Below, piece after piece: positions 4,129-23,888 of a DNA stretch of 35,439 bases. Under the pieces are notes generated by a model. The model did not search any database, had not been told where the DNA came from, and saw only the letters and a program-made list of their open reading frames with translations. Both the position numbers and the translations under genes were made by a program. Every line of letters begins with the position of its first letter. The stretch's first letter is position 1. The DNA is taken from contig JAKSBX010000248.1 of NCBI GenBank assembly GCA_022360905.1, positions 1-35,439 on the forward strand, in the 5' to 3' direction. This DNA comes from Chromatiales bacterium (lineage in GTDB: Bacteria; Pseudomonadota; Gammaproteobacteria; Chromatiales; Chromatiaceae).

Positions 4129-4137
4129 ACCTCATAT

Positions 4138-4716: not shown

Positions 4717-4804
4717 ACTGCACCATCCAAAATCCTAATAGATAATTAATAGATATTAAATTTCTACAGTTGAGGCAATAATAATCACCCAACAAGTGCA
4801 CCTA

Positions 4805-4863: not shown

Positions 4864-4893
4864 TGAGTCGCATAAAGGTCAACGGAGATAACA

Positions 4894-5439
4894 GTGCACA
4901 ATCCTAATCGTAAATTAATACCACATCTTATGCAGACCGCCACGATTGCCTGTGGGGTTCTGATATGTACTAATTCTTATGCGGCATCCCTGGGTGATTG
5001 TCTGCACGCTGCAAGTCAGATCAAGCAGGGGGATTTCGTTAAAGTCGAATATCTCAATCCGTCCGCTGAGGGGCGTCCTACCTATGAGATTGAGGTCCGT
5101 ACGTCCAGTGGGCGTGAGTGGGAGTTTATGTGTGACGCTACCTCGGGCATGATCTACGAGATGGAACAGGAAGTTGAGTCTGCGGAAGATCCCTTGTTCA
5201 GCAAGCACGCGAAGGTCACCGCCAAACAAGCCAGTGATACTGTATTGGAACTCTATCCGGGCAAGATCGAAGAGATTGAGTATGAGATTGAAACGAACGG
5301 TGATGCCAGTTATGAAATTGATGTGGTGGACGAGGGAGGTACCGAGTTCAAGGTTGAAGTGGATGCTGCCAGCGGTAAGGTGATCGAAGTTCATGTGGAA
5401 CAATGGGAGATCGGCGAAGAGGGTGATGAACGTCAGTAA
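4894..5439 (+). CDS. Secreted PepSY domain protein
   Basis: A 181-residue exported protein starting at GTG 4894, supported by GGAG at 4884-4887 with 6-nt spacing. The N-terminus has a basic stretch, a hydrophobic core and a likely signal peptidase site after NSYA, near residue 32. The mature part shows two PepSY-like repeats: one around YEIEVRTSSGREWEFMCDA with SGMIYEME, and a second around YEIDVVDEGGTEFKVEVDA with SGKVIEVH. PepSY domains are small periplasmic modules linked to protease inhibition or to cation/redox sensing two-component systems. The protein is markedly acidic. Its promoter region carries repeated sites, so it is probably inducible; no sensor kinase is adjacent. Confidence 0.85.
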   Translation: MHNPNRKLIPHLMQTATIACGVLICTNSYAASLGDCLHAASQIKQGDFVKVEYLNPSAEGRPTYEIEVRTSSGREWEFMCDATSGMIYEMEQEVESAEDPLFSKHAKVTAKQASDTVLELYPGKIEEIEYEIETNGDASYEIDVVDEGGTEFKVEVDAASGKVIEVHVEQWEIGEEGDERQ

Positions 5440-5580
5440 GGCCTAGCTAGCGGAGAAGGGTTACCCTTTTCTATGAGCCACTGCATAGAGCATGGGCAGG
5501 CTTTGATTCAGTGGTTTACCTAGGGTCTATGTATCAGTTTATCTCCCACCCGGTCTTCGTCTATTACCGATTCAGTGTTA

Positions 5581-6177
5581 CTACGGGGACGTCTCTACCT
5601 GAAACTCTTTTACCCATACCAACTCACAGGCGCCTCCGCCCGTATCACTGCGCGATAATGAACTTGTCCAATGCCACCCGTCTTCACCATCGACCCTGAC
5701 TAGATAGCCAGAGAAACTAATGATCTCACCTTTGCGAGCACGTTTAATGGCCGCTTCAGTGGTTTCGTCGAAGGGGATGAGGTGCATGTTGCTGGCGTGG
5801 GTTTCGATCTCCTTGCGAGGTATGGGAAGCTCATCTGCACGCCAGTGAAAAAAACGATTGGACTGTGAAATACGTATTGTCTCGAGCACGCTTTCGTCTG
5901 ACATATTACCCCAGCCCAGCGCAAGGTCGATAGGAGAGAGGTCCGCCTCACGACCAAACCGGTAGGTCATCTTGGATAGGATTTTGGCTTTTATAGAGAA
6001 GTTGGCCAAGGGGGTGATACGGTAGCCTTTGTAATCGAACGATTTAGTGTCATCCAATAACTCCTGTTGCGGTTCCGCCGCTGCCATCACTCCGGGGCTT
6101 AAAGTAACCTCCGCCTCGCGTAAGAAGAAAAACCAGAATATACCGTAGGCTGCCGCCAATATCATGAGTTTTTTCAT
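5581..6177 (-). CDS. Conserved hypothetical membrane-anchored protein
   Basis: A 198-residue protein with an N-terminal hydrophobic segment of about 15 residues (LMILAAAYGIFWFFFL) that looks like a signal anchor, followed by a soluble domain facing the periplasm. The soluble part contains FDYKGYRITPLANFSIKAK, a DLALGWGNMSD motif and a conserved-looking SGYLVRVDGEDGW followed by Cys and acidic residues near the end. I do not recognise a named family with certainty; the overall pattern is that of a widespread proteobacterial hypothetical protein with no enzyme motif. No strong Shine-Dalgarno sequence precedes the ATG. It lies downstream of, and in the same direction as, the AHSA1-domain gene, with 92 nt between them. 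Confidence 0.75.
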   Translation of the reverse strand: MKKLMILAAAYGIFWFFFLREAEVTLSPGVMAAAEPQQELLDDTKSFDYKGYRITPLANFSIKAKILSKMTYRFGREADLSPIDLALGWGNMSDESVLETIRISQSNRFFHWRADELPIPRKEIETHASNMHLIPFDETTEAAIKRARKGEIISFSGYLVRVDGEDGWHWTSSLSRSDTGGGACELVWVKEFQVETSP

Positions 6178-6269
6178 GGATTATTTTGGCTCTTTAAATT
6201 GGTTTGACCTTAATAATTGTTCGGTTTTATGTTACCCATATCTGTCTGATCCATACGCCGGACCTTGCC

Positions 6270-6713
6270 TCAATAGGAGTTCGGCGTCCCGCCATTGCCA
6301 TCAAGATAATTTTTGAGGCTGGTGAGAATATAGTGGTCCCAGCCGTTCTTGCAGATCTCATAGCAGGCGATTTGCGGCGTAAGACCGATATGTGTGAAGA
6401 CGATCTCGGTGCCGTCTTTGTGTTCGACGAACTCAAAAACAAGCTTGGTTCCACGCCACTCCTCGGGGTCATCAAGTGCATCGGAAATCATGTGGGACTC
6501 AACGCAGTCGAGTTCGATCAAGCTTGGTTCGTTCAGGGAGCGGGCTTCAAACACCCAATAGGACTCTCCCCCGAAATCTGTTTTTGCCCGATCTCCGGTT
6601 TTGCGGAATGGGGCACTCATTGGCGTCCACCACTGATCCATCTCTTCGGTAATTGCATGATAGGCACGGGAAGGAGAAACAGGACAAATAATCGAGGATC
6701 GATAATCGCTCAT
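6270..6713 (-). CDS. SRPBCC / AHSA1-type domain protein
   Basis: A 147-residue protein of the Bet v1-like START/SRPBCC superfamily, AHSA1 subgroup. It begins SDYRSSIICPVSPSRAYHAI, followed by EEMDQWW and a series of beta strands ending in a long C-terminal helix with HYILTSLKNYL, the usual closing helix of the fold. Such proteins bind hydrophobic ligands in a cavity; no ligand can be assigned. ATG 6713 is supported by AAGGAG with a 7-9 nt spacing on the minus strand. It is divergent from an HxlR-type regulator, and a perfect -10 (TATAAT, minus strand, 6753-6748) lies inside the palindromic operator at 6741-6759, so it is very probably controlled by that regulator. Confidence 0.85.
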   Translation of the reverse strand: MSDYRSSIICPVSPSRAYHAITEEMDQWWTPMSAPFRKTGDRAKTDFGGESYWVFEARSLNEPSLIELDCVESHMISDALDDPEEWRGTKLVFEFVEHKDGTEIVFTHIGLTPQIACYEICKNGWDHYILTSLKNYLDGNGGTPNSY

Positions 6714-6740
6714 GGTGTGACTCCTTGCTTTCTTGAATAA

Positions 6741-6759
6741 TACTTCTATTATAGAAGTA
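6741..6759. promoter_or_regulatory. Palindromic HxlR-type operator overlapping a -10 box
   Basis: TACTTCTATTATAGAAGTA is a perfect 9-bp inverted repeat around one central base. It lies in the 83-bp gap between divergent genes for the AHSA1 protein and the HxlR regulator. On the minus strand it contains TATAAT (6753-6748), a perfect -10 for the AHSA1 gene, with TTGAGT (6778-6773) as a possible but wide-spaced -35. The outer TACT...AGTA halves match the pattern known for HxlR/DUF24 regulators such as YodB. Binding here would block RNA polymerase and probably also autoregulate the regulator. Confidence 0.7.
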
Positions 6760-6796
6760 ACATAGCTTAATAACTCAATTATGCAAGTGATTGCTC

Positions 6797-7246
6797 ATGG
6801 TCGCGAAAGTCGAACATAGGAACAGAACCGGTTGTCCCATCGCCTGTGCACTGGATATCATTGGAGATCACTGGACCTTGTTGATCATTCGTAATTTGAT
6901 GTTTTTGGGGCTGCATGAATATAAGGAGATGCTTGAGACTGAAGAGCAGATCTCGAGCAATATTCTGACCATACGTCTGAAAATGTTGGAAGAGGCTGGT
7001 CTGATCGCTTCCGCTTCACACCCGGAAAGCAAACGGCGCAAGCTCTATTACCTGACGCCGACGGGCAAGGATCTGATTCACGTGATGGTGCCGCTGGTGT
7101 TGTGGTCGCGGCGAAACCTGCGTGAGCACTTGAAGATTCCCAATGATATCGATCACTTGTTGGAAACCGACCCGCAAGCTTTCCTGGAAGAGACTCTGCA
7201 ACGGCTCAGTGACTGGGAGCAAATTAATCTGAGATCGTTGGTTTGA
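6797..7246 (+). CDS. HxlR family winged-helix transcriptional regulator
   Basis: A 149-residue winged-helix DNA-binding protein. The HxlR signature is clear: a conserved CP near the N-terminus (Cys13 in RTGCPIACALD), IGDHWTLLIIRNL for the first helices, then ISSNILTIRLKMLEEAGLI for the recognition helix and PESKRRKLYYLTPTGKDL for the wing. Members respond to aldehydes, quinones or disulfide stress, often through that Cys. The open frame reaches TTG 6791, but ATG 6797 is the natural start; no strong ribosome-binding site is present. Its C-terminal extension of about 40 residues is longer than in minimal family members. The stop codon overlaps the left arm of the palindrome at 7245-7281. Confidence 0.9.
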   Translation: MVAKVEHRNRTGCPIACALDIIGDHWTLLIIRNLMFLGLHEYKEMLETEEQISSNILTIRLKMLEEAGLIASASHPESKRRKLYYLTPTGKDLIHVMVPLVLWSRRNLREHLKIPNDIDHLLETDPQAFLEETLQRLSDWEQINLRSLV

Positions 7247-7281
7247 TCAATGGGCAACCACTGACAGCTTGCCCATTGATC
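7245..7281. terminator. Bidirectional stem-loop between convergent genes
   Basis: GATCAATGGGCAA (7245-7257) and TTGCCCATTGATC (7269-7281) form a perfect 13-bp stem with an 11-nt loop. It fills the 44-nt space between the convergent HxlR and ferredoxin genes, and its left arm starts inside the HxlR stop codon. Neither strand has a run of T after the stem, so it acts either with Rho or as an RNA 3'-end stabiliser for both messages. Confidence 0.6.
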
Positions 7282-7290
7282 GGAAAACAA

Positions 7291-7659
7291 TCAGGCGCCT
7301 CCAGGTTCACCAGTAAACTGCACAAGCAGGTCCTCATCCGTTACAACGGTCTGACAGGCAAGACGGAAGGTTGGCGGTATATCTTTTACATTGGCCCGCT
7401 CCTCTTCATGCTTGGGAAGTTTGCCAATGGACTTGAGCACCTCTCTCTCCTTGTCGGTGAGCATAACGCCTTTGATATGATCACCATCCAGATGGGTGAC
7501 TTTGATCAGGCATGAGCCGCATTCGCCATCCTGACATTCGAATGGGATTTTGATGTCGTTTTCCTTGGCTACAGCCAACAGGGTATCGCGCTTGCCAGCG
7601 ACAGCGGATACTTTTTTATTTTTATTCATGATAGGAGATGAGAAGTAGATTGTGGCCAT
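7291..7659 (-). CDS. fesII: 2Fe-2S ferredoxin, Shethna protein II (FeSII) type
   Basis: A 122-residue plant-type [2Fe-2S] ferredoxin with ligands Cys42, Cys47, Cys50 ([10 protein letters not shown]) and Cys102 (FRLACQT). The start MATIYFSS, the AGKRDTLL segment, the long charged insert ([17 protein letters not shown]) and the ending [10 protein letters not shown] are those I associate with Azotobacter vinelandii FeSII, which has the same length. FeSII binds nitrogenase under oxygen stress and holds it in an inactive but protected complex. The frame extends to ATG 7671, but GGAG at 7669-7666 is spaced 6 nt from ATG 7659, and the shorter start matches the family. No nif genes lie in this window. 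The identification by recalled similarity should be confirmed by alignment. Confidence 0.88.
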
Positions 7660-7869
7660 AGTCTGCTCCACTGATTAGTCAAAAGATTAAAAGATAAAAG
7701 TTGATTCTGATGTCCGCATAAACCCGGATATTTGATTGGCAACGTATCACAGCATAGTGTCAGGACAGGCTTCATCATACGTAAAAAAAAGCATATATAA
7801 ATAGTAATTTTGTAATGCACTTAATTGAGGCTCGAAATTAAAATGAGGCGTCGGTTTATGTTTTTTTGA

Positions 7870-7980
7870 TGCACTATTTGGATGCATGAACAAGAGCTTT
7901 ATTATTAAACGCACCAATATGATGCCGCGTAAAAAAGTGATTTTGATCGATGCTTGTAAAAAGCGCACCAATATGAAACG
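7870..7980. promoter_or_regulatory. Three NtrC-like enhancer sites between fesII and the SMR exporter gene
   Basis: Compared with the enterobacterial NtrC consensus TGCACCAWWWTGGTGCA, TGCACTATTTGGATGCA at 7870-7886 matches at 14 of 17 positions. CGCACCAATATGATGCC at 7910-7926 also matches at 14 of 17, and at 14 of the central 15. A third copy at 7964-7976 repeats CGCACCAATATGA exactly but has a poor second half. The last two are 54 bp apart. I found no sigma54 GG-N10-GC element on either strand within the 365-bp gap, so which gene they serve, and whether NtrC is the factor, is unresolved. The rest of the gap is AT-rich with no gene. Confidence 0.45.
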
Positions 7981-8024
7981 CTCTCATTTTAATCGTCTTT
8001 TTTTAATTTACCCTGGAGTGATAG

Positions 8025-8336
8025 ATGGCCTGGCTGTGGTTGATGTCTGCAGGTTTTTTTGAAGTTTTTTTTGCGATATTTCTCAAGCTGTCAGATGGTT
8101 TTACCAAACCTCTCTATACTACTCTATTCGTGTTGGCGGCAGGATTGTCATTTTACTGTTTAACCAAAGCGATGCAGATCATCCCAATCGGTACAGCTTA
8201 TGCTGTATGGACGGGTATAGGTACGGCAGGTGTGGCGTTGCTTGGAATACTACTTTTTTCAGAACCGGTAACCGGTTTGAGGCTCTTTTTTATGGCGACG
8301 TTGATTGTTTCAATTATCGGCTTAAAGCTGGCTTGA
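8025..8336 (+). CDS. sugE: SMR family transporter, guanidinium exporter (Gdx/SugE) type
   Basis: A 103-residue, four-helix small multidrug resistance protein. It aligns without gaps to the Gdx subgroup, which exports guanidinium in exchange for protons: Gly10, the proton/substrate-binding Glu13, Ser42, and the IPIGTAYAVWTGIG signature with Trp62 are all present. One usual active-site residue differs: Trp16 of Gdx proteins is Phe here. GGAG at 8014-8017 lies 7 nt before ATG 8025. Guanidinium export fits the guanidine degradation operon 6 kb downstream. No guanidine riboswitch is visible upstream of this gene; instead NtrC-like sites lie at 7870-7980. Confidence 0.88.
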   Translation: MAWLWLMSAGFFEVFFAIFLKLSDGFTKPLYTTLFVLAAGLSFYCLTKAMQIIPIGTAYAVWTGIGTAGVALLGILLFSEPVTGLRLFFMATLIVSIIGLKLA

Positions 8337-8431
8337 ATGATGTCTGTTCAATACGGATTGGTGGGGCAAGGTCCCACCTTGAACCATTCATCCGTTTCAG
8401 ATGTGATTGACTAGGTCTACATAAGAAACTA

Positions 8432-8890
8432 TTAGTCAGCCGTTGCGCAAAAGTCACTTTCCCAATATCCGGTGCCGGGTAGATAGGGTGATGAGGGGTC
8501 TGAGTTTGTTGGATGAACGGCTCGAACGTCCCATAAAATCATCGGTGTGCAAACACCTGCTTCCCATTCACTCGTGATTCTGACATCCGTATTGCCATCC
8601 AGATAACGGTCGACCAGCGATTCTGATAACAGAGAGTTATTCGCGTATTGGTAGGTATAACCAAAATCGTCAGCGAATTGATCAAGATCGGATCTGAATT
8701 CAAAACTTGTTGGTTGGTTATCAGAGTTGAACGTAAAACTGAAAACCATCTCACCGATACTGGATGTATTTGGCGTTGTGGCGATTACCGATTCACAATT
8801 GCCGTTGCATCTCGACTGAAAGCGGAATAGTCGACACAGAAGGATGGATAAAAAGTCAGAAGATACGGTTGAGGCCGTTGAGTGCCGCAA
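8432..8890 (-). CDS. Hypothetical protein, start uncertain, possibly a 5'-truncated remnant
   Basis: The open frame gives up to 152 residues, but its first codon is a TTG inside the 3' end of sthA, and the first 24 residues are simply sthA DNA in another frame. The first ATG is at 8749 (105 residues), with no ribosome-binding site at proper spacing. The rest looks like a real folded, exported domain: Cys pairs at CNGNC and later EAGVC...DFC, aromatic-rich strands ([17 protein letters not shown]) and an Asp/Asn-rich composition. The absence of a signal peptide suggests that the beginning of the gene was lost. I do not recognise the family. It may be a pseudogene. Confidence 0.4.
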
Positions 8891-10253
8891 CGCGATAGGC
8901 TTCCGCCATCGTCGGGTAGTTGAATGTGGTCTCTGCGAAGTAGAGCAAGCTGTTGGCCTCTCCCTGTTGCGCCATAATTGCCTGACCGATGTGGACGATT
9001 TCAGAGGCCTGTTCGCCGAAGCAGTGGATGCCCAGGATCTCCAGGGATTCCCTGTGGAACAGCAGTTTCAGCATGCCGACTTCATGATCGGTAATCTGCG
9101 CACGGGCGATTGTCCTGAAGCTTGCTTGACCCACCTCGTAGGGGATTTTGCTGGCGGTCAGCTCCCGCTCTGTTCGACCGATCGAGCTGATTTCCGGCAG
9201 GGTGTAGATGCCGGTGGGAAAGTCATCGATCAACTGCCAGTCTGCACTGCCGGTGGCGATCTGGGCGCCAACAAAGCGTCCCTGGTCGTAACTGGCGCTG
9301 GCCAGAGCAGGAGGACCGACTACATCGCCGACCGCATAGATGTGGGGTAGAGAGGTGGCATAGGTTTTGTCGATCTCGATCTGACCCCGGTGATTGACCG
9401 CTACGCCGATCTCATCCAGCCCCATATTTTCCGTATTACCGCTGCGCCCATTGGCCCACAACAGGTAGTCTGTCTTGAATTTCTTGCCCGACTTGCAGTG
9501 CAACACGACACCGTCATCCACGGCCTCCACCTGCTCATAGACCTCATCATGACGTATCACAGTACCCTGGTTACGCAGGTGATAACTGAGGGCGTCGGTG
9601 ATTTCATCGTCGAGAAACGAGAGCAGGCGATCCCGAGTATTGACCAGATTCACTTTGACATCCAGATTACAGAAAATCGAGGCATACTCACAGCCGATGA
9701 CGCCTGCACCATAGATGGTAATGGAGTCCGGTGTGGTATCGAGCCGCAATACCGAATCACTATCCAGAATCCTGGGATGGTTGAAGTCGATATCTTCAGG
9801 GTGATACGGACGGGATCCTGTGGCGATTACAAAATGCTCCGCAGTAACCTCTTCACTGACCCCGCGCTGTTGAGCAATTTCAATCCGGTGGGTGTCGATG
9901 AATCCGGCCCGGCCATGGATCACTTCGATCCGATTACGGGCATAGTGGCGTAGACGACTGCGGACCTGTTGGTTGATTACCTTGCCCGCCGCCTTCAGTA
10001 GATGGGAATACTCAACTTGAACCTGGTCGTGTGTGTGTTGAAAGAGAGGATTGCGGCGATAATCCCTTAACAGCTGAATATTGTGTCTGAGTGCTTTGGA
10101 TGGAATGGTGCCCCAGTGGGTGCAACCACCCCCCACCATATCGTGTGCTTCAATCACGGCTACTCGCTTGCCGCTCTTGACCAGTTTCATGGCAGCCCCT
10201 TCACCGCCGGGACCACTACCAATTACTACCACATCAAAATGTTTCGCACTCAT
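8856..10253 (-). CDS. sthA: Soluble pyridine nucleotide transhydrogenase (Si-specific NAD(P)+ transhydrogenase)
   Basis: A 465-residue flavoprotein disulfide-reductase family member that interconverts NADPH and NADH in the cytoplasm without a proton pump. The FAD-binding Rossmann motif is [10 protein letters not shown] near residues 10-19 and the NAD(P) motif is [14 protein letters not shown] near 179-192. The diagnostic region [17 protein letters not shown] (Cys44) has Thr where disulfide reductases have their second redox Cys, the hallmark of SthA/UdhA. The dimerisation domain ends with [19 protein letters not shown]. The length equals that of E. coli SthA. It lies downstream of the GGDEF-EAL gene on the same strand, with 106 nt and a stem-loop between them. 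Confidence 0.96.
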
Positions 10254-10342
10254 CGTCTCTCCGCTTCCGCTTCTGCGCTGACCGGCTACAGTCTAACACT
10301 TTTTTGCAGTGCAATATGGTTGTTTACATGTTTTTAACTTTC

Positions 10343-10359
10343 AGGCCCCTGCAGGGCCT
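10343..10359 (-). terminator. Short stem-loop directly after the GGDEF-EAL stop codon
   Basis: AGGCCC (10343-10348) pairs with GGGCCT (10354-10359) around a 5-nt loop, immediately after the minus-strand stop codon at 10362-10360. The bases that follow on the minus strand (GAAAGTTAAAAA) are not T-rich, so termination is uncertain. Confidence 0.35.
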
Positions 10360-12336
10360 TTAAATTGGATTTTCAGCAGCTTTTCTACCTTGCTGCTGAC
10401 AAAAGTTGATGAATCTGTCCAGATCCATCGGTTTTGCGATGATATCGCCTTGCACGATATTGCAGGCATAGCTCTTCAACAGTTCAAACGTCGATTGCTC
10501 TTCCACGCCCTCTGCAACCACTTTCAGGCCCAGTTTTTTAGCCATATCGATGGTGCCTTCAACAATCACGGCATCGGTCTTTTCTCTGGTGATGTCCTTG
10601 ACCAGTATCCGGTCGATCTTGATCAGGTCGATCGGCAATTTTTTGATGTAGGCGAGTGAGGATTGTCCGCTGCCGAAGTCATCGATTGCCAGGGTGAAGT
10701 TCGCCCCGCGCAGCTGTTCCAGTTTTCTGATGGTGTCCGCCCAATCCGGCAGCAGGGCGTTTTCAGTAATTTCCAGTAACAGATGTTTTGCTTCGATACC
10801 GTAACGGTTGATGGTGGCCTGGATATCGCTGACAAAATTTTGATCGGCAAACTGCAGCGGACTGACATTGATTGAGATTTTGAAGTGATCATTCAGCAGA
10901 CCTGAATCGGCCAGTCTGTTGAGGTGCTGGCAGACCTGATCGAGCACCTGTTTGCCAAGCTCTATAATCAGACCGCTCTGTTCAGCATGCTCGATAAAGC
11001 TATCAGGTGCCACCAGACCATCCTGCGGGTGGTGCCATCGGACCAGGGCTTCACCGCCGATCACTTCTCCATCGATGCTTATTAAAGGCTGGTAGTGGAT
11101 AACCAGATCGTCATTTCTCAGGGCATTACGCAGACCCTGTTCCAGGGTCATCAGCAGGTGGGCCTGTTCCTGCATATCGGGGTTGTAGAGGCTCATTGTA
11201 TTGCGGCCGATGGCCTTTGCCCGGTACATGGCAAAATCTGCCCGTTTCAAAAGGTCATCGGCGTTATCCCCATGCAGTGGGAACAGTGCGACGCCAATAC
11301 TTGCCGAAATATGAAACTCCCCATCTCTGAGCATAAACGGGCGTGCAAGGGTCTCTTGTATATTTTTAGTTGTCTGTTCCACCAATTTGACAGCTTCGCT
11401 CTCCTGATCGGCCAGTTCCGGCATCAGCAACACAAATTCATCACCGCCAAGACGTGTGGCTGTATCCTCTTCACTTAGGCAACTGTTCAATCTGAGCGCC
11501 AACTGCTTGAGCAATTCGTCACCCTGCTGGTGCCCCATGGAATCGTTGAGGGTTTTAAAGTTATCCAGGTCGAGATAGAACAAAGCTCCGATATGAGTAT
11601 GATGGATCGAGCGTGCGATATCCTTGCTCAGACGCTCGGTTAGCAGACGACGATTCGGCAGATTAGTGAGTGCGTCATGATAGGCGAGGTGTTCGATAAT
11701 CTTGCGGGAATGACGCTGCCTGATGTTCATCGCCAGTGATGCTGATAAATTACGATTGATACTGATCGCACCTGAACCCATCACGACCAGGTAGATACAG
11801 AGCATGAAACCCAGACCGATATTGGCCGGCCCACCGAGGGTGAACAGTCTGATGATCAATGGGATGATGACCAGTAACATGTAACCCAAAGAGGCGGGTA
11901 ACAAGGCAGCTTGAGTTATCACACCGCCTGCGGCCATACCGATCAGGCTGGCTATGATTATGGTCTGATGGAACGACTGCTCTCCCAAAGGTACCAGTAG
12001 AAATGCGGCGGATCCCCAGATGGCACCTGAAGTCAGCGTGCCTGTAATGGCTCGTTTACGCCAGATCTTTAGGGAGCCCTCAGTGGATTTTCGGGCTTGA
12101 TAGACACGATAGTTGTAGTATCGATAGAGGCTCAAACCGAGCATCCCTACAAACCAAGCCACTAGAATCTGCCATTGAATCACTGACCATTGGGCAACCA
12201 CGATGACGGTGGTGTTGATCATGATTGCCGCCAGCGAGGCGGGCAGCCCGGTAAATGACAACTCTACCTGGTTCTTCCTTAGGCGGGCTGCAAAATCGGG
12301 CGGATCGCTGAGTGACGGGTCGGTGTATTCTGTCAT
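10360..12336 (-). CDS. Membrane-bound GGDEF-EAL protein (cyclic di-GMP turnover)
   Basis: A 658-residue inner-membrane protein. Residues 30-200 contain about six hydrophobic segments arranged as a membrane sensor; no known MASE name is certain. A GGDEF domain spans about 215-385 with an intact RLGGDEF (GGDEF at 297-301), so cyclase activity is possible. The product-inhibition RxxD site is absent (SEED in its place). An EAL domain spans about 400-645 and retains the usual catalytic set: EAL at 429-431, Asn490 in SINVSP, Glu522 in EITE, the DD of IDDFGSG, Lys574, Glu609 in AEGVE and Gln629. The phosphodiesterase half therefore looks active. No strong Shine-Dalgarno precedes ATG 12336. Confidence 0.93.
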   Translation of the reverse strand: MTEYTDPSLSDPPDFAARLRKNQVELSFTGLPASLAAIMINTTVIVVAQWSVIQWQILVAWFVGMLGLSLYRYYNYRVYQARKSTEGSLKIWRKRAITGTLTSGAIWGSAAFLLVPLGEQSFHQTIIIASLIGMAAGGVITQAALLPASLGYMLLVIIPLIIRLFTLGGPANIGLGFMLCIYLVVMGSGAISINRNLSASLAMNIRQRHSRKIIEHLAYHDALTNLPNRRLLTERLSKDIARSIHHTHIGALFYLDLDNFKTLNDSMGHQQGDELLKQLALRLNSCLSEEDTATRLGGDEFVLLMPELADQESEAVKLVEQTTKNIQETLARPFMLRDGEFHISASIGVALFPLHGDNADDLLKRADFAMYRAKAIGRNTMSLYNPDMQEQAHLLMTLEQGLRNALRNDDLVIHYQPLISIDGEVIGGEALVRWHHPQDGLVAPDSFIEHAEQSGLIIELGKQVLDQVCQHLNRLADSGLLNDHFKISINVSPLQFADQNFVSDIQATINRYGIEAKHLLLEITENALLPDWADTIRKLEQLRGANFTLAIDDFGSGQSSLAYIKKLPIDLIKIDRILVKDITREKTDAVIVEGTIDMAKKLGLKVVAEGVEEQSTFELLKSYACNIVQGDIIAKPMDLDRFINFCQQQGRKAAENPI

Positions 12337-13801: not shown

Positions 13802-13852
13802 GTATGGATTGCGTCCGTGCCCTTGTTATCAGGACAATACAATTTAACCGAA

Positions 13853-13990
13853 ATAGAAGGCTAGGGTTCCGATCCGGCTCAATACCAGACAAGGTGGTGA
13901 GCTGTGATGACTGGTCCAAGAGCATTCGACCTCTCCCTCTCATTGCGGGGTATGGGTTACACGGCGGGATAAAAGCCCGGGAGACTTGCT
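13853..13990 (+). promoter_or_regulatory. Guanidine-I riboswitch (ykkC class)
   Basis: The conserved blocks of the ykkC RNA appear in order: CTAGGGTTCCG at 13861-13871, ACTGGTCCAAGAG at 13910-13922, ACACGG at 13959-13964 and GGGATAAAAGCCCGGGAGA at 13966-13984. Guanidine-I RNAs bind guanidinium and switch genes on. The leader continues about 55 nt to ATG 14045. A weak stem (CTTGG/CCAAG, 13989-14006) follows without a T-tract, so the switch may act on translation; ACCTCTC inside the aptamer (13929-13935) could pair with the start-site GAGAGGT (14033-14039). Other ykkC subtypes bind ppGpp or PRPP, but the guanidine genes downstream support subtype 1. Boundaries are approximate. Confidence 0.92.
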
Positions 13991-14044
13991 TGGTCTGACT
14001 GCCAAGGGTGCTCCGTGTAGACAGATGTAACTGAGAGGTTCTTC

Positions 14045-15085
14045 ATGAAACGTTTTGCCGCTTTAATACTCGTACTTTCTCTTAGCTCTGTGGCTCAGGC
14101 TGCAGAGAGCTTCAAAATATGTTGGTCGATCTATGTCGGTTGGATGCCCTGGGCCTATGGGGCAGAGCAGGGGGTCGTCAAAAAATGGGCCGATAAATAT
14201 GGTATCGATATCGAAGTGGTGCAGATCAACGACTATATCGAATCGATCAATCAGTACACCGCCGGTGCGTTCGATGCCTGCACCATGACCAACATGGATG
14301 CTCTGACCATTCCGGCAGCCGGTGGTGTGGACAGCACTGCACTGGTAGTGGGTGACTTCTCCAACGGCAATGACGGTGTGGTGTTGAAGGGCAAGAGCAA
14401 GTTGGCGGATATCAAAGGTCAGCAGGTCAACCTGGTTGAGTTGAGTGTCTCACACTATCTGTTGGCCCGTGGCCTGGAAAGTGTCGGACTGAGTGAGAAG
14501 GATCTCAGCGTGGTGAATACTTCCGACGCGGATATGGTTGCCGTCTATGGCACCGACGATGTCACCGCTGTCGCCACCTGGAATCCTCTATTGAGTGAAA
14601 TTACTGCTATGCCCAACAGCACCAAGGTGTTCGACTCCTCCATGATTCCGGGCGAGATTATCGACCTGCTGGTGATCAATACCGAAACCCTCAAGGCCAA
14701 CCCGAAACTGGGTAAAGCGCTGGTGGGTGCCTGGTATGAAATCATGGCTGTCATGAGTGGCTCCGATAAGGCTGGTGTCGAAGCGAAAACCCATATGGCA
14801 ACCGCATCCGGTACCGACCTGGCAGGTTATGAAGCGCAATTGGCCAGTACCGAGATGTTCTATACTCCGGCGGCCGCTCTGGAACTCACCAACAGTGAAA
14901 AGCTGCTGGCCACCATGGAACATGTCGCCAAGTTCTCATTTGATCATGGCCTATTGGGCGACGGTGCCCCGGATGCGGGATTTATCGGAATCGAAATGCC
15001 CGCCGGTACTTTCGGGGACAAGGGCAACATCAAGTTTCGCTTCGATCCGAGTTATATGACGATGGCGGCTGAAGGCAAGCTATAA
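14045..15085 (+). CDS. ABC transporter substrate-binding protein, guanidine/urea carboxylase-associated
   Basis: A 346-residue periplasmic binding protein of the NMT1/SsuA-like fold, matching the family annotated as urea-carboxylase-associated ABC binding protein. The signal peptide is clear, with cleavage predicted after VAQA (residue 19). The mature start FKICWSIYVGWMPWAYGAEQG and the tail GNIKFRFDPSYM are typical of this group. GAGAGG at 14033-14038 is 6 nt from the ATG. It is the first gene after the sigma54 promoter and guanidine-I riboswitch. The aromatic-rich start of the mature protein could form a cation-binding cage, so guanidinium is a reasonable ligand, but this is inferred from context. 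Often annotated as urea-binding. Confidence 0.9.
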   Translation: MKRFAALILVLSLSSVAQAAESFKICWSIYVGWMPWAYGAEQGVVKKWADKYGIDIEVVQINDYIESINQYTAGAFDACTMTNMDALTIPAAGGVDSTALVVGDFSNGNDGVVLKGKSKLADIKGQQVNLVELSVSHYLLARGLESVGLSEKDLSVVNTSDADMVAVYGTDDVTAVATWNPLLSEITAMPNSTKVFDSSMIPGEIIDLLVINTETLKANPKLGKALVGAWYEIMAVMSGSDKAGVEAKTHMATASGTDLAGYEAQLASTEMFYTPAAALELTNSEKLLATMEHVAKFSFDHGLLGDGAPDAGFIGIEMPAGTFGDKGNIKFRFDPSYMTMAAEGKL

Positions 15086-15145
15086 AACAGATCGCATTCG
15101 GTTTGGCAAACTATCAAGCTCGCCGGTTCTGATTATTCTGTTCAT

Positions 15146-15233
15146 CGTCATCCCGGCGAATGCCGGGATCCAGAGTCATCAAACCGTTGGATTACTCGCT
15201 TAGCGCTTTTGTCCAGCATTTGCCGGAATGACG
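15146..15233. repeat. REP-like palindromic element between ABC transporter genes
   Basis: An 88-bp element bounded by CGTCATCCCGGC (15146-15157) and its near inverse GCCGGAATGACG (15222-15233). The left end forms a perfect 8-bp hairpin, ATCCCGGC-GAAT-GCCGGGAT (15150-15169). The CGTCATCCCGGCGAATGCCGGGATCCAG pattern is of the kind scattered between genes in many gammaproteobacteria. Only one copy is in this window. It occupies the 281-nt gap between binding-protein and permease genes; the remaining 133 nt of that gap, to 15366, hold nothing I recognise. Confidence 0.7.
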
Positions 15234-15366
15234 GATAAGAAGAGTAGCTCCAAAATGAGCTGATCGTTTGCTGGCCAGGCAATCCATCCAAATTGAGTAG
15301 CAAAGAGCACCTTCTGCCGAAACTGCAAATGCAGATCGGTCGCTGAGGTTTGCGCCGAGAAAGCCT

Positions 15367-16188
15367 ATGAAGAAATTCATCAATCAACAGCCGAGCAGGG
15401 CATTCAAGCTGCTATTGGGTATTGCACCCTTTGTAGTTTTGATCCTGCTCTATGTGATGGGTTCGGATGCCCGTTTGGAAGTGAATCCGAATGACAAACT
15501 GCTGCCCAGCATGAGTCAGATCGCCGACGGTTTGGAACGTATGGCGTTTGAGCCCAGTAAACGATCCGGTGAGTATCTGTTCTGGCAGGATACCGCCAGC
15601 AGTCTGACCCGTCTCGGTCTGGGGATCCTGATTGCGGCAATGCTCGGATTATTGATCGGACTGGTGACCGGTGCGTTGCCCATGTTTGCCGCTTCGCTTT
15701 CGCCATTGCTGACCGTGGTCTCTCTGATACCGCCGTTGGCGATTCTGCCGATACTGTTCATAGTTTTCGGCCTGGGCGAGGTCTCCAAAGTGGTGTTGAT
15801 CGCCATTGGAATCACTCCCTTTATCGCCAGGGACATTCAGCGGCGCACGCAAGAGATCCCCACTGAGCAACTGGTGAAAGCCCAATCTCTGGGGGCCAAC
15901 ACCTCACAGATCATGATACGGGTGCTGCTGCCCCAGATCATGCCGAAGCTGTTCGATGCGGTGCGTTTGTCTCTCGGCGCAGGCTGGCTCTTTTTGATCG
16001 CTGCGGAGGCGGTCGCAGCAACAGACGGCCTGGGGTATCGCATTTTCCTGGTAAGGCGTTACATGGCGATGGATGTGATTCTGCCCTATGTGGCCTGGAT
16101 AACCATGCTTGCATTCCTCATTGATGTGAGTCTGCGGGAGCTGACTAAAAAACTCTTTCCTTGGTATGTGCAGGGAGGTAAGTCATGA
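15367..16188 (+). CDS. ABC transporter permease, guanidine/urea carboxylase-associated
   Basis: A 273-residue inner-membrane permease of the SsuC/TauC-like BPD_transp_1 family. There are about six membrane segments, starting with FKLLLGIAPFVVLILLYVM. The cytoplasmic EAA loop that contacts the ATPase is visible as EQLVKAQSLGANTSQIMIRV followed by LLPQIMP, at about residues 165-190. The start codon is preceded only by a modest GAGAAAG. The stop overlaps the ATPase start by 4 nt. It forms the transporter with the preceding binding protein and following ATPase, importing the nitrogen substrate of the operon. Confidence 0.93.
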   Translation: MKKFINQQPSRAFKLLLGIAPFVVLILLYVMGSDARLEVNPNDKLLPSMSQIADGLERMAFEPSKRSGEYLFWQDTASSLTRLGLGILIAAMLGLLIGLVTGALPMFAASLSPLLTVVSLIPPLAILPILFIVFGLGEVSKVVLIAIGITPFIARDIQRRTQEIPTEQLVKAQSLGANTSQIMIRVLLPQIMPKLFDAVRLSLGAGWLFLIAAEAVAATDGLGYRIFLVRRYMAMDVILPYVAWITMLAFLIDVSLRELTKKLFPWYVQGGKS

Positions 16189-16991
16189 GTGAGGCCGATC
16201 AAGATACCACGCCGATGATTCAAGTGAACCAGGTATGGAAGCAGTATGACGACAACATTGTATTGGAGCGACTCAACAAAACCGTCGATGAGGGAGAGTT
16301 TGTCACCTTGGTTGGTGCCTCGGGCTGCGGCAAGAGTACCTTCTTGAATATGTTGCTGGGCACCGAACAGCCCTCCAAAGGCGAGATACTGCTCGACGGA
16401 AAACCGATCCCGAATGAAGCGGGATCGGATCGGGGTATTGTCTTCCAGCAATATTCGGTGTTTCCCCATATGACCGTGTTGGAGAATGTGATGGCGACCT
16501 GCGGCTTTCAACGTCCCGGCATTACCGGCTATCTGTTCGGTTCGGGGCGAAGCGCAGCCCGTGAAGCGGCCGAGTCGATACTCGAACAGGTCGGTCTCAG
16601 CCAGGCGTTGAAGAAGTATCCCCATGAACTCTCCGGCGGTATGAGGCAGCGTCTGGCCCTTGCCCAGGCATTGCTGGGTAAACCCCGAATACTGCTGCTG
16701 GATGAATCTTTCGGTGCCCTCGATCCGGGTATCCGGGCGGATATGCACGATTTGGTGTTAAACCTCTGGAGCGAACACAAACTGACTGTCTTCATGGTCA
16801 CCCATGACCTGAAAGAGGGTTTCTATCTGGGCACCCGGTTGTGGGTGTTCGACAAGCTGAGACACGATCCCCAGGCCCCGCAAAGGTACGGTGCAGTGAT
16901 TACCTATGACCTGCCGGTGGGGCATATGGATCAAACAACCTATCAACAGATCGATGACCACTTGAGACCGATACCGGCTCAGGCTGGTTAG
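16185..16991 (+). CDS. ABC transporter ATP-binding protein, guanidine/urea carboxylase-associated
   Basis: A 268-residue ABC ATPase of the SsuB/TauB-like family. Walker A is GASGCGKST (about 45-53), the Q-loop VFQQYSVFPHMT, the signature LSGGMRQRLALAQALL, Walker B ILLLDESFGALDP and the switch His in MVTHDLKEG. The C-terminus after the core (residues 215-268) is longer than minimal and includes an aromatic-rich stretch. ATG overlaps the permease stop (ATGA), so the two are translationally coupled. It energises uptake by the preceding two components. The next gene starts 13 nt downstream. Confidence 0.95.
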   Translation: MSEADQDTTPMIQVNQVWKQYDDNIVLERLNKTVDEGEFVTLVGASGCGKSTFLNMLLGTEQPSKGEILLDGKPIPNEAGSDRGIVFQQYSVFPHMTVLENVMATCGFQRPGITGYLFGSGRSAAREAAESILEQVGLSQALKKYPHELSGGMRQRLALAQALLGKPRILLLDESFGALDPGIRADMHDLVLNLWSEHKLTVFMVTHDLKEGFYLGTRLWVFDKLRHDPQAPQRYGAVITYDLPVGHMDQTTYQQIDDHLRPIPAQAG

Positions 16992-17004
16992 TGGAGAGAT
17001 CAGT

Positions 17005-17739
17005 ATGAGCGATATGATCAAATCGATTGACTATAAAACGGAACTGCCCACTGGGGCCCATTGGTCGCTGCGTATGCGCCGTGGCAGCATCATGCGACTG
17101 ACCGATATGAACGGCTCGGCCAATCTGGGGATGCTCTTCTACAACCCGGAAAATCTTCTGGAACGCTACAACGCACCGGATACCCTGAAGTGTCAGCATA
17201 CTTTCAAGTTGAGCAGAGGGAACTGTCTCTACTCGGATATGGGACGGATCTTTGCCTCCATCGTGGAGGACAGCCTGGGTTGGCATGAGACCGTGGCAGG
17301 TAACTCACACGCCAGTCATGTGGAAGCCAGATGGGGGGCGAGAGATTATCAGCACGACCGTAACGACTGGAAACAGAACGGCCATGATGCCTTTCTGGTG
17401 GAGCTGGCCAAGTATGGCCTCACAGCGGCAGACCTTGCCGCCAACATCAACTGGTTCAGCAAAGTGATGGTCAACGATGAGGGTAACTTGGAACTGGTCT
17501 CTGATCACAGCCAGGCGGGTGATCAGGTGACTCTGCGCTTTGAGATGGACACCCTGGTGGTGATGCATACCTGCCCACATCCGATGAACCGCTCGGCAAG
17601 CTATCCGCAAGGCAAGGTGCAGATCGAATTGGGTGTGGCCCAAGCGCTGCAGCAGGATGACTACTGCATGCACTTCAGAGCGGAAAACGGCCGGGGTTTT
17701 CAGAACAACGCCCTCTATCATATCGGCCTTGGAGAGTAG
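17005..17739 (+). CDS. DUF1989 protein, carboxyguanidine deiminase subunit (larger; UAAP-type)
   Basis: A 244-residue protein of the DUF1989 family, long called urea carboxylase- or urea amidolyase-associated protein. Work on Pseudomonas showed that the pair (CgdA/CgdB) is a carboxyguanidine deiminase, turning the carboxylase product into allophanate plus ammonia. Visible landmarks: a RLTDMNGSANLGMLFYNP strand-turn shared with its neighbour, SLGWHETVAGNSHASH (His94, His102, His105) and HTCPHPMN (Cys190, His192). In the first motif it lacks the Cys residues that its partner has there, so the two subunits may not be equivalent. GGAG lies 8 nt before ATG 17005. I cannot say which of CgdA or CgdB this is. 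Confidence 0.9.
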   Translation: MSDMIKSIDYKTELPTGAHWSLRMRRGSIMRLTDMNGSANLGMLFYNPENLLERYNAPDTLKCQHTFKLSRGNCLYSDMGRIFASIVEDSLGWHETVAGNSHASHVEARWGARDYQHDRNDWKQNGHDAFLVELAKYGLTAADLAANINWFSKVMVNDEGNLELVSDHSQAGDQVTLRFEMDTLVVMHTCPHPMNRSASYPQGKVQIELGVAQALQQDDYCMHFRAENGRGFQNNALYHIGLGE

Positions 17740-17742
17740 ATC

Positions 17743-18387
17743 ATGATCAAAGAGTCAGAGCTGTTAGCGGAGCACGCAAGTCGTAGAACCACTGTTGATG
17801 CAGGCGATTATTTCATTGGTATCGTTAAAGCGGGCGAGACGATTCGTATCCTCGATCTGGAAGGTAACCAGGCTGCTGATACCCTGTTTTACTCGGCAGA
17901 CAATCCGGCAGAGCGCTACAGTGCCATGGATACCATCAGGGAGCAGGGCAATGTCTATCTGACGGCTGGTTCAAAACTCCGTTCCAATGAGAACAACGTG
18001 ATGCTGGAAGTGGTGGCGGATACCTGTGGCCGTCACGATACCCTCGGCGGTGCCTGTGCCACCGAAAGCAATACCGTTCGGTACGACTTGGAAAAGCGCT
18101 GTATGCACGCCTGTCGTGACAGCTGGATGCTGGCGGTGGCGGAACATCCCGAGTATGGCATCAGCAAACGGGATATCACCCACAACATCAACTTCTTTAT
18201 GAATGTGCCGGTCACCACAGAAGGTGGATTGACCTTTGAAGACGGTATCTCCGCCCCGGGTAAGTATGTAGAACTCAGGGCTGAGATGGATGTGGTTGTG
18301 CTGCTCTCGAATTGCCCCCAGTTGAACAACCCCTGCAACGGTTACAACCCGACGCCGATCGAGTGTCTGGTCTGGGGTGCCGCCTGA
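17743..18387 (+). CDS. DUF1989 protein, carboxyguanidine deiminase subunit (smaller; UAAP-type)
   Basis: The 214-residue partner of the preceding gene, three bases downstream of it, from the same DUF1989 family. The shared core is [20 protein letters not shown], followed by a likely metal site [11 protein letters not shown] (Cys95, His98, Asp99, Cys105) and a further Cys pair in NCPQLNNPC (Cys191, Cys198). These Cys/His positions are those expected for a zinc-dependent deiminase, so this subunit may carry the active site. It should release ammonia from carboxyguanidine to form allophanate for the last enzyme of the operon. GGAGAG precedes ATG 17743. The 86 nt after its stop contain the guanidine-II riboswitch. 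Confidence 0.9.
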
Positions 18388-18414
18388 TCGCTTTGCAGCA
18401 TTGATTCACTAAAG

Positions 18415-18468
18415 ATCAGTGGACGACCACTGATGACGCTTTTTTTAACCGGGACGACCCGGTCAAGG
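18415..18468 (+). promoter_or_regulatory. Guanidine-II riboswitch (mini-ykkC) inside the operon, before the carboxylase gene
   Basis: Two perfect hairpins with identical ACGA loops closed by G-C pairs: ATCAGTGG-ACGA-CCACTGAT (18415-18434, 8 bp) and ACCGGG-ACGA-CCCGGT (18448-18463, 6 bp). A 13-nt linker containing seven T joins them. Two hairpins with GG-ACGR-CC tips are the definition of the mini-ykkC/guanidine-II RNA, in which the two loops join and bind guanidinium. The ribosome-binding site AAGG (18465-18468) begins 2 nt after the second hairpin and 5 nt before ATG 18474, the usual place for translational control. GACC in each hairpin tip (18425-18428, 18456-18459) is complementary to GGTC at 18467-18470, a possible off-state pairing. 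Confidence 0.88.
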
Positions 18469-22076: not shown

Positions 22077-23888
22077 ATGGCGAGCCACTATCCCTACAAT
22101 ATGACCATCGCTTCACTACGCAAAGCATACGCCGAAGGAGATCTGACACCGGCGCGAGTGTTGCGTGATATCCGGGAGCGTGCGGCAGAGTTTGAATCCC
22201 ATAACATTTGGATTCACCTGCTCAGCGAATCAGAAATAGACGAATACCTGCAAAGATTACAGCATATGGATCCAGTGGAGTACCCTCTATGGGGTATCCC
22301 CTTTGCAATCAAAGATAACATCGACCTTGCCGGTATTTCGACCACCGCAGCCTGTGAAGCCTTTGCCTATACACCGCAAAAATCAGCAAAGGTTGTCGAT
22401 CGCCTGATTGCAGCCGGGGCAGTACCGGTGGGCAAGACCAATCTTGATCAGTTTGCCACAGGATTGAATGGCACCCGCTCTCCCTGGGGAGCTTGCAAAA
22501 ACGCCTTCGATCCCGAATATATCAGCGGCGGTTCCAGCTCGGGATCGGCCGTTGCCGTTGCACTGGGATTGGCCTGTTTCAGTCTCGGTACCGATACCGC
22601 CGGATCCGGACGTGTACCGGCCTGTTTCAACAACCTGATCGGACTTAAGCCCACCAGAGGCCTGCTTTCCACCGATGGCCTGGTTCCTGCCTGTAGAAGC
22701 CTGGACTGTATAACGATCTTTGCCTACGACACCAATGATGCCGATCTTGTGTTGTCCATTGCTGAAGCTTACGACCCGGGTGATGCCTACAGTCGCAGCA
22801 ATCCATACCACAATCAGAAACGAAACTACGGCGTCAGGGAGGGTAAGCTGAAGTTTGGCGTTATACCCGACAACCAATTGAATTTCTTTGGCGATCGGCA
22901 ATATGAGCAGGCCTATCGGGCGACGCTGGAACGGTTGGAACTCGATGGCATCGAGTTGCTTGAAATCGATTATGAGCCGTTCGCAGATGCCGCCAAGCTA
23001 CTCTATGAAGGCCCTTGGGTGGCGGAGCGTTATCTCGCAATCCAACCGCTGATCGACACTGACCCGGAGGCAATATTTCCGGTCGTCCGGGATATCATCG
23101 CACCGGGTAAAACACTCACAGCCACGGCGCTGTTTCAGGCTCAGTATCGGCTTAATGCGTTGAAGCAGAACTGCGATCGGCAGATGGCGGGATTGGACGC
23201 TTTGCTCACTCCGACCGCGGGGACCTGTTTCACCATCCGGCAGATGTTGGAACAACCGGTTCTGCGTAACAGTCAATTAGGTTACTACACCAACTTTATG
23301 AATCTGTTGGATCTATCCTCGATCGCCGTACCGACACAGATAACCCCAGGCGGTCTGCCTTTCGGCATTACCCTGGTCGGTTCTGCATTCAGTGATCGGG
23401 CCTTGCTTTCGATTGCCAATCGAATCCACAACTGCTTCGATCTTAAATCGGGGGCTTCGCAATTCGATAGTGAACCGGCCCCGGTTGCTGCTGTGGGGGT
23501 TAGAGATAAAATCGATATCGTGGTGTGTGGCGCCCATCTGCAAGGACTGCCGCTCAACTGGCAGTTGACAGAGCGGGGCGCGACCCTGGTCGAGAAGACA
23601 AAAACAGAACCGGTCTACAGAATGTACGCCTTGGCCGGCGGTCCTCCCGATCGACCGGGACTGATCTTGGATGAACAGCATGGAGCGGCGATCGATGTGG
23701 AGGTCTGGTCTATGCCGGCGAGCCAGTACGGCAGCTTCGTCGAGGGTATACCGGCGCCGTTGGGTATAGGAAAGATTCGCTTGGCAAACGGGTCGCTCAC
23801 CAGCGGTTTTATCTGTGAACCATACGCCATTGCCGACGCGCTGGAGATCACACAGTTTCAAGCCTGGAGATCCTATTTGGATCGTTGA
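22077..23888 (+). CDS. atzF: Allophanate hydrolase
   Basis: A 603-residue amidase-signature enzyme that splits allophanate to ammonia and CO2, the last step of the operon. The Ser-cisSer-Lys triad is readable: Lys79 in IPFAIKDN, the cis-Ser at 153 in GGSSSGSA and the nucleophile Ser177 in GTDTAGSGR. The C-terminal 120 residues (from about 475, IDIVVCGAHLQGLPLNWQL) form the extra domain found only in allophanate hydrolases, with ALAGGPPDRPGL and a SGFICEPYA motif. AGGAGG at 22060-22065 overlaps the end of the carboxylase gene. ATG 22077 is 6 nt after that gene's stop; ATG 22101 is a less likely alternative. Confidence 0.95.
   Translation: MASHYPYNMTIASLRKAYAEGDLTPARVLRDIRERAAEFESHNIWIHLLSESEIDEYLQRLQHMDPVEYPLWGIPFAIKDNIDLAGISTTAACEAFAYTPQKSAKVVDRLIAAGAVPVGKTNLDQFATGLNGTRSPWGACKNAFDPEYISGGSSSGSAVAVALGLACFSLGTDTAGSGRVPACFNNLIGLKPTRGLLSTDGLVPACRSLDCITIFAYDTNDADLVLSIAEAYDPGDAYSRSNPYHNQKRNYGVREGKLKFGVIPDNQLNFFGDRQYEQAYRATLERLELDGIELLEIDYEPFADAAKLLYEGPWVAERYLAIQPLIDTDPEAIFPVVRDIIAPGKTLTATALFQAQYRLNALKQNCDRQMAGLDALLTPTAGTCFTIRQMLEQPVLRNSQLGYYTNFMNLLDLSSIAVPTQITPGGLPFGITLVGSAFSDRALLSIANRIHNCFDLKSGASQFDSEPAPVAAVGVRDKIDIVVCGAHLQGLPLNWQLTERGATLVEKTKTEPVYRMYALAGGPPDRPGLILDEQHGAAIDVEVWSMPASQYGSFVEGIPAPLGIGKIRLANGSLTSGFICEPYAIADALEITQFQAWRSYLDR

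Follow-up and report, generated by a model that had tools for sequence, protein, structure and literature searches.

Results

Organization of the locus

The window, a stretch of 35,439 nucleotides (contig JAKSBX010000248.1, assembly GCA_022360905.1), comes from a Candidatus Thiodiazotropha-type bacterium, a relative of clam symbionts with a genome of 4.59 Mb. As shown in Table 1, a guanidine-I leader, the genes of an ABC importer, cgdA, cgdB, a guanidine-II RNA, gca and an allophanate hydrolase gene follow one another on the + strand, and the gene order and gaps point to a single transcript. Judged from protein family matches, the gene set is a guanidine-assimilation operon, with importer, carboxyguanidine deiminase, guanidine carboxylase and allophanate hydrolase. 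The substrate-binding protein and its partners likely form a guanidine importer, and CgdA and CgdB are putative carboxyguanidine deiminase subunits by name transfer. The gap between gca and the allophanate hydrolase gene is 6 bases, so that mgdH and mgdL do not fit between them and are absent there.

Asp703 of the carboxylase aligns with an Asn of 3va7, in a column that we take to be the published Asp/Asn specificity site. Asp was found in this column in 51 of 56 carboxylases compared. According to the accessible text of PMC12186494, Asp versus Asn at the specificity site separates guanidine carboxylase from urea carboxylase. Carrying Asp and not Asn at the candidate site, the window enzyme would belong with the guanidine carboxylases.

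Table 1. Genes and RNA elements of the operon, with predicted pairing strands (SD, Shine-Dalgarno sequence).
Feature	Position	Strand	Evidence or remark
Guanidine-I (ykkC, RF00442) aptamer, operon leader	13850..13985	+	cmscan 70.5 bits, gathering 63, E 9.4e-11
Pyrimidine stretch ACCUCUC-CCUCUCAU, 5' arm of aptamer P2, predicted anti-SD	13929..13943	+	two CCUCUC copies
UACACGG, aptamer core / P2 3' end	13958..13964	+	predicted partner of 14013-14019 when ligand-free
CCGUGUA, predicted anti-aptamer strand of expression platform	14013..14019	+	fold models
SD GAGAGGU of substrate-binding-protein gene	14033..14039	+	5 bases 5' of ATG 14045
ABC substrate-binding protein	14045..15085	+	TIGR03427 ('putative urea ABC transporter') 564.6 bits, cut-off 333.9
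ABC permease	15367..16188	+	family-level match, under equivalog cut-offs
ABC ATPase	16185..16991	+	family-level match, under cut-offs
cgdA, DUF1989 protein (UAAP1)	17005..17739	+	TIGR03425 314.9 bits, cut-off 205.95; PF09347
cgdB, DUF1989 protein (UAAP2)	17743..18387	+	TIGR03424 333.2 bits, cut-off 284.7; PF09347
Guanidine-II (mini-ykkC, RF01068)	18415..18463	+	cmscan match 18415-18462, 41.1 bits, gathering 32, E 5e-5
Guanidine-II P1	18415..18434	+	8 bp, ACGA loop
Guanidine-II linker	18435..18447	+	U7 at 18440-18446
Guanidine-II P2	18448..18463	+	6 bp, ACGA loop
SD AAGG of carboxylase gene	18465..18468	+	predicted pairing with U-rich linker, extending P2
gca, biotin-dependent guanidine (urea-type) carboxylase, 1198 aa	18474..22070	+	TIGR02712 1868.6 bits, cut-off 1303.85
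Allophanate hydrolase	22077..23888	+	TIGR02713 776 bits, cut-off 511.05

The initial annotation had proposed that two unrelated classes of guanidine riboswitch lie in this co-directional gene set. Both Rfam models scored above gathering, and the positions given were correct to within 5 bases. At the gathering threshold, cmscan matched no Rfam family in the window other than RF00442 and RF01068, and in the source genome each had one match among the first-look candidates scored (150 of 333 for one family and 150 of 164 for the other).

Predicted masking of the first ribosome site by the guanidine-I leader

A scan of the + strand from the aptamer end at 13985 to the ATG at 14045 found nothing terminator-like. 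The leader therefore departs from the usual guanidine-I platform, for which the accessible text of PMC12186494 describes an intrinsic terminator as usual and not required. In 17 of the 23 two-switch leaders no 7-base stretch held more than 4 T; five of the 23 are near-identical genus copies. The remaining six had 5 or 6 T in 7, and a terminator is therefore possible in each of them. All 27 Firmicutes leaders counted, a set without three leaders whose chosen start is distant, had at least 5 T in 7 bases. Terminator-like sequence was also present in some leaders of the class survey (L066, L068, L075, L091).

The leader was described by folding. In the free fold, the second CCUCUC copy (13936-13941) held the SD at a probability of 0.94-0.96 and the first copy at 0.03. 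The first copy (13929-13935) can form seven Watson-Crick pairs with the SD, and an OFF form built on it was less stable by 5.0 kcal/mol than the free ensemble, where the second copy serves instead. Positions 14015-14019 paired with 13958-13964 at 0.92-0.97 in the free fold, and 14013-14014 at 0.04-0.11. The mean unpaired probability of the SD was 0.10 in the free fold and 0.40 with the aptamer forced; the forced aptamer lay 16.9 kcal/mol above the free ensemble in a model that has no ligand or tertiary term.

Pairing was compared across 38 leaders, comprising 45 non-Firmicutes, non-cyanobacterial leaders minus 7 near-duplicates; cyanobacterial leaders were wholly excluded. In the 33 leaders not flagged as terminators, the P2 strand paired with its own SD at -7.85 kcal/mol per leader, against -6.79 for mismatched combinations (35/20000 permutations), and this signal was absent in the 5 terminator-flagged leaders (4702/5000). 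All 38 leaders together gave 83/20000 and the 19 two-switch leaders 152/20000. The Firmicutes leaders, intended as a control, also leaned weakly toward P2:SD pairing (375/5000). Pairing of the aptamer core with the downstream strand gave 21/20000 permutations and, with 25 leaders pooled, was reached in 0/400 shuffles; taken singly, 8 of the 25 had p <0.05, and the isolated duplex of the window leader alone was no better than shuffles (p 0.16). A first permutation set of 25 leaders, picked by eye for a GACCU-type P2, had given 9/20000 for P2:SD and 84/20000 for core:downstream pairing. Leaders L014 and L085 (+) were excluded for a chosen start codon lying >137 bases away, and L072 was trimmed by hand to the first ATG bearing an SD. 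L083 is a two-switch leader flagged as a terminator by pattern that looks like an anti-aptamer stem by eye, and L029 was counted as two-switch from the guanidine-II motif only. Although Methylocella L024 carries both elements, the search pattern did not pick up its leader, which is in none of the leader counts. Since the leader has no intrinsic terminator and P2:SD pairing covaries, these results suggest that the window guanidine-I RNA probably gates translation rather than transcription.

The guanidine-II RNA before the carboxylase gene

Guanidine-II lies between cgdB and gca, and both of its hairpins are perfectly paired. Its stems were compared over 25 distinct rows drawn from 29 sites before gca; L094 (distant start) and L111 (one hairpin read), both also before gca, were omitted. 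In 277 of 300 cells the bases pair, a value reached in 0/2000 shuffles (shuffle mean 214.2, sd 5.5). Both sides had changed in 9, 12, 12 and 11 of the 25 rows at P1 pairs 3, 4, 5 and 6. The loops read ACGA or ACGG in all rows, by construction, because the sites were located via the loop motif. That the short guanidine-II model had matched by chance was rejected on the recurrent position and the covariation.

In the minimum-energy fold, the linker pairs with the carboxylase SD as an extension of P2. This pairing had a probability of 0.48 in the window and 0.61-0.65 in five genus relatives; it was present in the best fold of 6/6 genus sequences and reached 0.3 in just 14 of 37 folded sites. Forcing P1 and P2 left the SD masked, in a secondary-structure model that cannot represent loop docking. 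The U-rich linker is thus predicted to be able to mask the carboxylase SD, in keeping with the initial annotation, which had put the second switch directly before the biotin-dependent carboxylase as a gate on its translation. The scan lists P1 with U7 as an intrinsic terminator; this candidate was rejected, because the stem ends 5 bases short of the U-run, which in the best fold is paired with the SD. A search by sigma-70 consensus found no promoter-like site just 5' of guanidine-II.

Recurrence in other genomes

Both families were found in at least 15 of 369 genomes sampled evenly from the class, and in 11 of those 15 guanidine-II lay 3.3-5.1 kb 3' of guanidine-I on the same strand. The order guanidine-I, substrate-binding protein, permease, ATPase, cgdA, cgdB, guanidine-II, gca and allophanate hydrolase was repeated in relatives, with both switches at the same place. 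The switch searches covered 50 of 59 carboxylase loci (L021, L023, L028, L043, L050, L055, L058, L059 and L061 were omitted). Counts from searches of more than 40 genomes are lower bounds, because filters were stricter and few candidates were scored per genome.

Discussion

The initial annotation took this arrangement to be undescribed. The two-switch layout was already published in 2025 and is not new: it has been reported in Vreelandella boliviensis, where both RNAs were also studied by in-line probing (PMC12508155), and in three enterobacteria (PMC12186494). As far as the accessible text of PMC12508155 goes, the V. boliviensis (Halomonas) operon has the same guanidine-I leader, three ABC genes, cgdA/B, guanidine-II between cgdB and gca, and allophanate hydrolase gene. 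It differs in having mgdH and mgdL between gca and atzF. These two genes are an extension of that operon, not a defining trait of the two-switch type. In the enterobacteria, importer and deaminase genes are placed under guanidine-I, and carboxylase and allophanate hydrolase genes immediately 3' under guanidine-II; the host group is different, and the likeness rests on the published description (PMC12186494). A tandem-riboswitch review, in its accessible text, reports no tandem with any guanidine class (PMC9481103). The SAM-II/SAM-V-like tandems that it covers likewise join two riboswitch classes for one ligand in one transcript, but they are consecutive and precede one gene, whereas the window switches are 4.4 kb apart and precede different genes. 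Our survey shows that Proteobacteria use the two-switch guanidine operon repeatedly, and that it is not a peculiarity of a single halophile.

We favour, with moderate confidence, a reading of the window operon in which both switches are turned on by guanidine and work chiefly on translation initiation. In the ligand-free state, the P2 5' arm (13929-13943) would pair with the first gene's SD, and the core of the aptamer with the nested downstream strand, so that the importer would be made poorly. Guanidine would stabilise the guanidine-I aptamer and free this SD. About 4.4 kb further 3', the U-rich linker of guanidine-II would extend P2 across the carboxylase SD, and docking of the two ACGA loops, driven by guanidine, may strain or move the linker so that the SD opens. 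Uptake and deamination would therefore be subject to one control point, and the large carboxylase, which consumes ATP and biotin, to a second one as well. We infer ligand binding by both window RNAs, as well as both SD-release steps; the V. boliviensis homologues bind guanidine with KD values of 44 and 93 uM (PMC12508155). The balance tips slightly toward a wider statement, that the guanidine-I switches of such operons in Proteobacteria are mostly translational, not terminators, with the P2 arm as anti-SD. The same bases would then either build the aptamer or mask the ribosome site.

Alternatively, guanidine-I could control transcription through termination, either intrinsic or Rho-dependent, with guanidine-II acting on translation. 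This is presumed for V. boliviensis in the accessible text of PMC12508155, guanidine-I is 'usually' a transcriptional ON switch according to that of PMC12186494, and the T-runs of the Firmicutes leaders and the terminator-like sequences of the class survey are consistent with it. The window sequence, however, indicates SD masking: the interval from 13985 to 14045 lacks a terminator-like element, and P2:SD pairing covaries in the leaders not flagged as terminators. We regard the transcriptional reading as somewhat unlikely here. Rho-dependent loss of transcript could accompany SD masking. Gating of the whole transcript by the first switch, as in the initial annotation, was not supported; control of the first importer gene was retained, through predicted SD masking.

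The second switch might mainly broaden the inducer range: since guanidine-II binds methylguanidine too, the carboxylase would be inducible by methylated guanidines that guanidine-I ignores. In V. boliviensis, guanidine-II treats guanidine and methylguanidine alike and guanidine-I discriminates (PMC12508155), and at one locus (L110) guanidine-II precedes a fatty-acid-desaturase-family gene. The window operon, however, has no room for mgdH and mgdL and so would not itself convert methylguanidine to guanidine by that route, and we hold this role as the main one to be rather doubtful. It is very improbable that guanidine-II is a redundant remnant of the fusion of two formerly separate control units, with no control role of its own. 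Each switch was seen alone at some carboxylase loci, guanidine-I where guanidine-II was not found (L011, L014) and guanidine-II where guanidine-I was not found in the genome (L012, L096, L115), but compensatory changes maintain the guanidine-II stems, and its site directly before gca is retained across many loci.

If two translational ON switches are indeed present, the operon would carry two translational checkpoints on one mRNA, as against the printed 'transcription first, translation second', and the mechanism presumed for guanidine-I in these operons would receive a directly testable correction. A limited literature search found no paper joining 'Thiodiazotropha' and 'guanidine'; the operon suggests guanidine as a nitrogen source for lucinid-clam symbionts.

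Two guanidine riboswitch classes in one operon

The initial annotation had placed a guanidine-I (ykkC) riboswitch in the operon leader and a guanidine-II (mini-ykkC) riboswitch between the second DUF1989 gene and the carboxylase gene. Both placements were confirmed by the Rfam covariance models, which gave exactly two matches at gathering score in the window; no second match of either class was found in the genome. The genes between and after the switches lie on the same strand and encode a substrate-binding protein (SBP), an ABC permease, an ABC ATPase, the DUF1989 proteins UAAP1 and UAAP2 (genes cgdA and cgdB), a urea-type carboxylase (gca), and an allophanate hydrolase. Little space separates neighboring genes, apart from a 281-base gap behind the first gene and one of 86 bases at the guanidine-II site, and we infer that the guanidine genes and both switches form one transcript. 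The 281-base SBP-permease gap contains a dispersed inverted-repeat element, with 11 copies in the genome at ≤3 mismatches and none of the reversed pattern.

Positions of the features discussed
Feature	Location	Positions	Strand	Evidence
Guanidine-I	window	13850-13985	+	cmscan, gathering score
P2 5' arm, first copy (ACCUCUC)	window	13929-13935
P2 5' arm, second copy	window	13936-13941
Aptamer core segment	window	13958-13964
Downstream partner of core	window	14015-14019
Leader SD (GAGAGGU)	window	14033-14039
Inverted-repeat element	window	15146-15173
Guanidine-II	window	18415-18462	+	cmscan, gathering score
Guanidine-II before cgdA	L024, Methylocella	8429-8477		Rfam
Guanidine-II before cgdA	L029, Rhodobiaceae MAG	8454-8517		motif only
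Three-riboswitch series	L110 (genome G193)	2331-12001	one strand

The window carboxylase has Asp703 at the column where the yeast-type urea carboxylase 3va7 has Asn, which we take to be the published specificity site. Asp is described for guanidine carboxylases and Asn for urea carboxylases in PMC12186494. Among 56 carboxylases readable at the specificity motif (most Firmicutes carboxylases were not read by it), 51 had Asp, 3 Asn, and 2 Cys. In one two-switch operon (L117, genome G268), gca has Asn, a residue suggesting that guanidine switches may here control a urea-type enzyme. Cys is found in gca of two Verrucomicrobia loci (L026 and L027), in whose genomes the covariance-model search gave no match to either class.

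Distribution of the two-switch layout

Among the named loci, the carboxylase most similar to that of the window is from Candidatus Thiodiazotropha endoloripes (L003; 90% identity, full length), which places the window in the Candidatus Thiodiazotropha group of lucinid-clam symbionts. A urea-type carboxylase of all or most of the length was present in 6 of 22 same-genus genomes (own included; split across two contigs in G009), so the operon is patchy within the genus. Guanidine-II was present in the same six genomes and guanidine-I in five, indicating that the switches accompany the operon; in the sixth (L008), the contig starts inside the operon.

Related genomes were surveyed for both classes together, with all counts being lower bounds because stricter filters were used. 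Among 50 genomes with a carboxylase relative, guanidine-I was over cut-off in at least 39, guanidine-II in at least 12, and both lay co-directionally on one contig in at least 10 (the close kin L003, L004, and L005; L006; L009; L010; L022, Thiobacillus; L024, Methylocella; L046, Shewanella; L049, Derxia). L007 is a further case if its motif match is accepted. An even draw of the class (369 genomes) gave guanidine-I in at least 29, guanidine-II at E ≤0.001 in at least 27 (25 over cut-off), and both in at least 15. In 11 of these 15, guanidine-II lay 3.3-5.1 kb downstream of guanidine-I on the same strand, including G268, where it scores 30.7, under the cut-off of 32. It directly precedes gca in 10 of the 11 and another gene in G193. 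In two alphaproteobacterial loci it precedes cgdA instead of gca.

The layout, of which the initial annotation knew no description, is real and recurrent, and is already published. PMC12508155 describes it for the operon of Vreelandella boliviensis, adding "like in several other bacteria", and PMC12186494 in three enterobacteria; an earlier review reported no tandem containing any guanidine class (PMC9481103). By in-line probing, V. boliviensis guanidine-I bound guanidine with a KD of 44 uM and did not bind methylguanidine within the range tested, and the values for guanidine-II were 93 uM for guanidine and 83 uM for methylguanidine (PMC12508155).

Conservation of guanidine-II and predicted masking of the carboxylase SD

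The guanidine-II hairpins are conserved in related operons. In the 29 sites compared that precede gca, which form 25 distinct rows (their kinship ignored), 277 of 300 stem cells pair; redealing the 3' letters gave a mean of 214.2 (sd 5.5) and reached the observed value in 0 of 2000 shuffles. P1 pairs 3-6 carry compensatory changes on both sides in 9, 12, 12, and 11 of the 25 rows.

In the best fold of the window guanidine-II, the U-rich linker pairs with the Shine-Dalgarno (SD) AAGG, extending P2. The modeled pairing probability is 0.48 in the window and 0.61-0.65 in the other five genus sequences; it was ≥0.3 in 14 of 37 sites folded (44 tried; six had a distant start and one was unread). An anti-SD belongs to the general guanidine-II model published in PMC7544219. 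Forcing P1 and P2 did not free the SD in the secondary-structure model, so its release would have to come from loop docking. Of the two-stage control suggested earlier, masking of the carboxylase SD by the linker is predicted by folding, but the guanidine-I leader has no terminator-like site between the aptamer and the ATG (~60 bases).

A predicted translational platform for guanidine-I

Two CCUCUC copies complementary to the leader SD lie in the 5' arm of helix P2 of the aptamer, and the first could form 7 pairs with this SD. The second copy holds the SD at 0.94-0.96 in the free fold and the first at 0.03, and the aptamer core pairs downstream at 0.92-0.97. As both aptamer strands are diverted, the free fold would be a nested OFF form. 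The SD unpaired probability was 0.10 in the free fold and 0.40 with the aptamer forced. Counting against translational control, forcing the aptamer costs 16.9 kcal/mol relative to the free ensemble (ligand and tertiary energy not included), and in the window leader alone the inner core-downstream duplex did not outperform shuffles (p 0.16).

When leaders were compared, P2 and SD strands from the same leader paired more strongly than mismatched ones. The observed sum was reached in 9/20000 permutations for 25 leaders picked by eye, 83/20000 for 38 leaders of all kinds, 35/20000 for 33 without a terminator flag, and 152/20000 for 19 two-switch leaders. For five terminator-flagged leaders it was reached in 4702/5000 permutations. 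The 27 Firmicutes leaders, at 375/5000, show a weak lean in the same direction. Core-downstream pairing gave 21/20000 permutations, and 0/400 shuffles for 25 leaders together. A run of at least five T in seven was present in all 27 Firmicutes leaders and in 6 of 23 two-switch leaders, being absent in the other 17.

The new, testable part is this predicted translational platform. The V. boliviensis layout is alike, whereas its guanidine-I is presumed to act via a terminator (PMC12508155) and SD masking is predicted here. No translational guanidine-I was found in the literature searched; one may be described in work beyond it (Nelson 2017; Sherlock 2017; Schneider 2020).

Variant arrays

In L110, three guanidine riboswitches stand in series. 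Guanidine-I is followed by distant SBP, permease, and ATPase genes, a creatininase-family protein, and a glutamine-synthetase-like ORF (by eye); then come guanidine-II, a fatty-acid-desaturase-family protein, a xylose-isomerase-like protein, a second guanidine-I, cgdA, cgdB, and gca. By analogy with mgdH/mgdL, this set may serve alkylated guanidines as a further route. L121 (genome G100) has a comparable set that includes two guanidine-I in one row, the two genes between them being named by eye.
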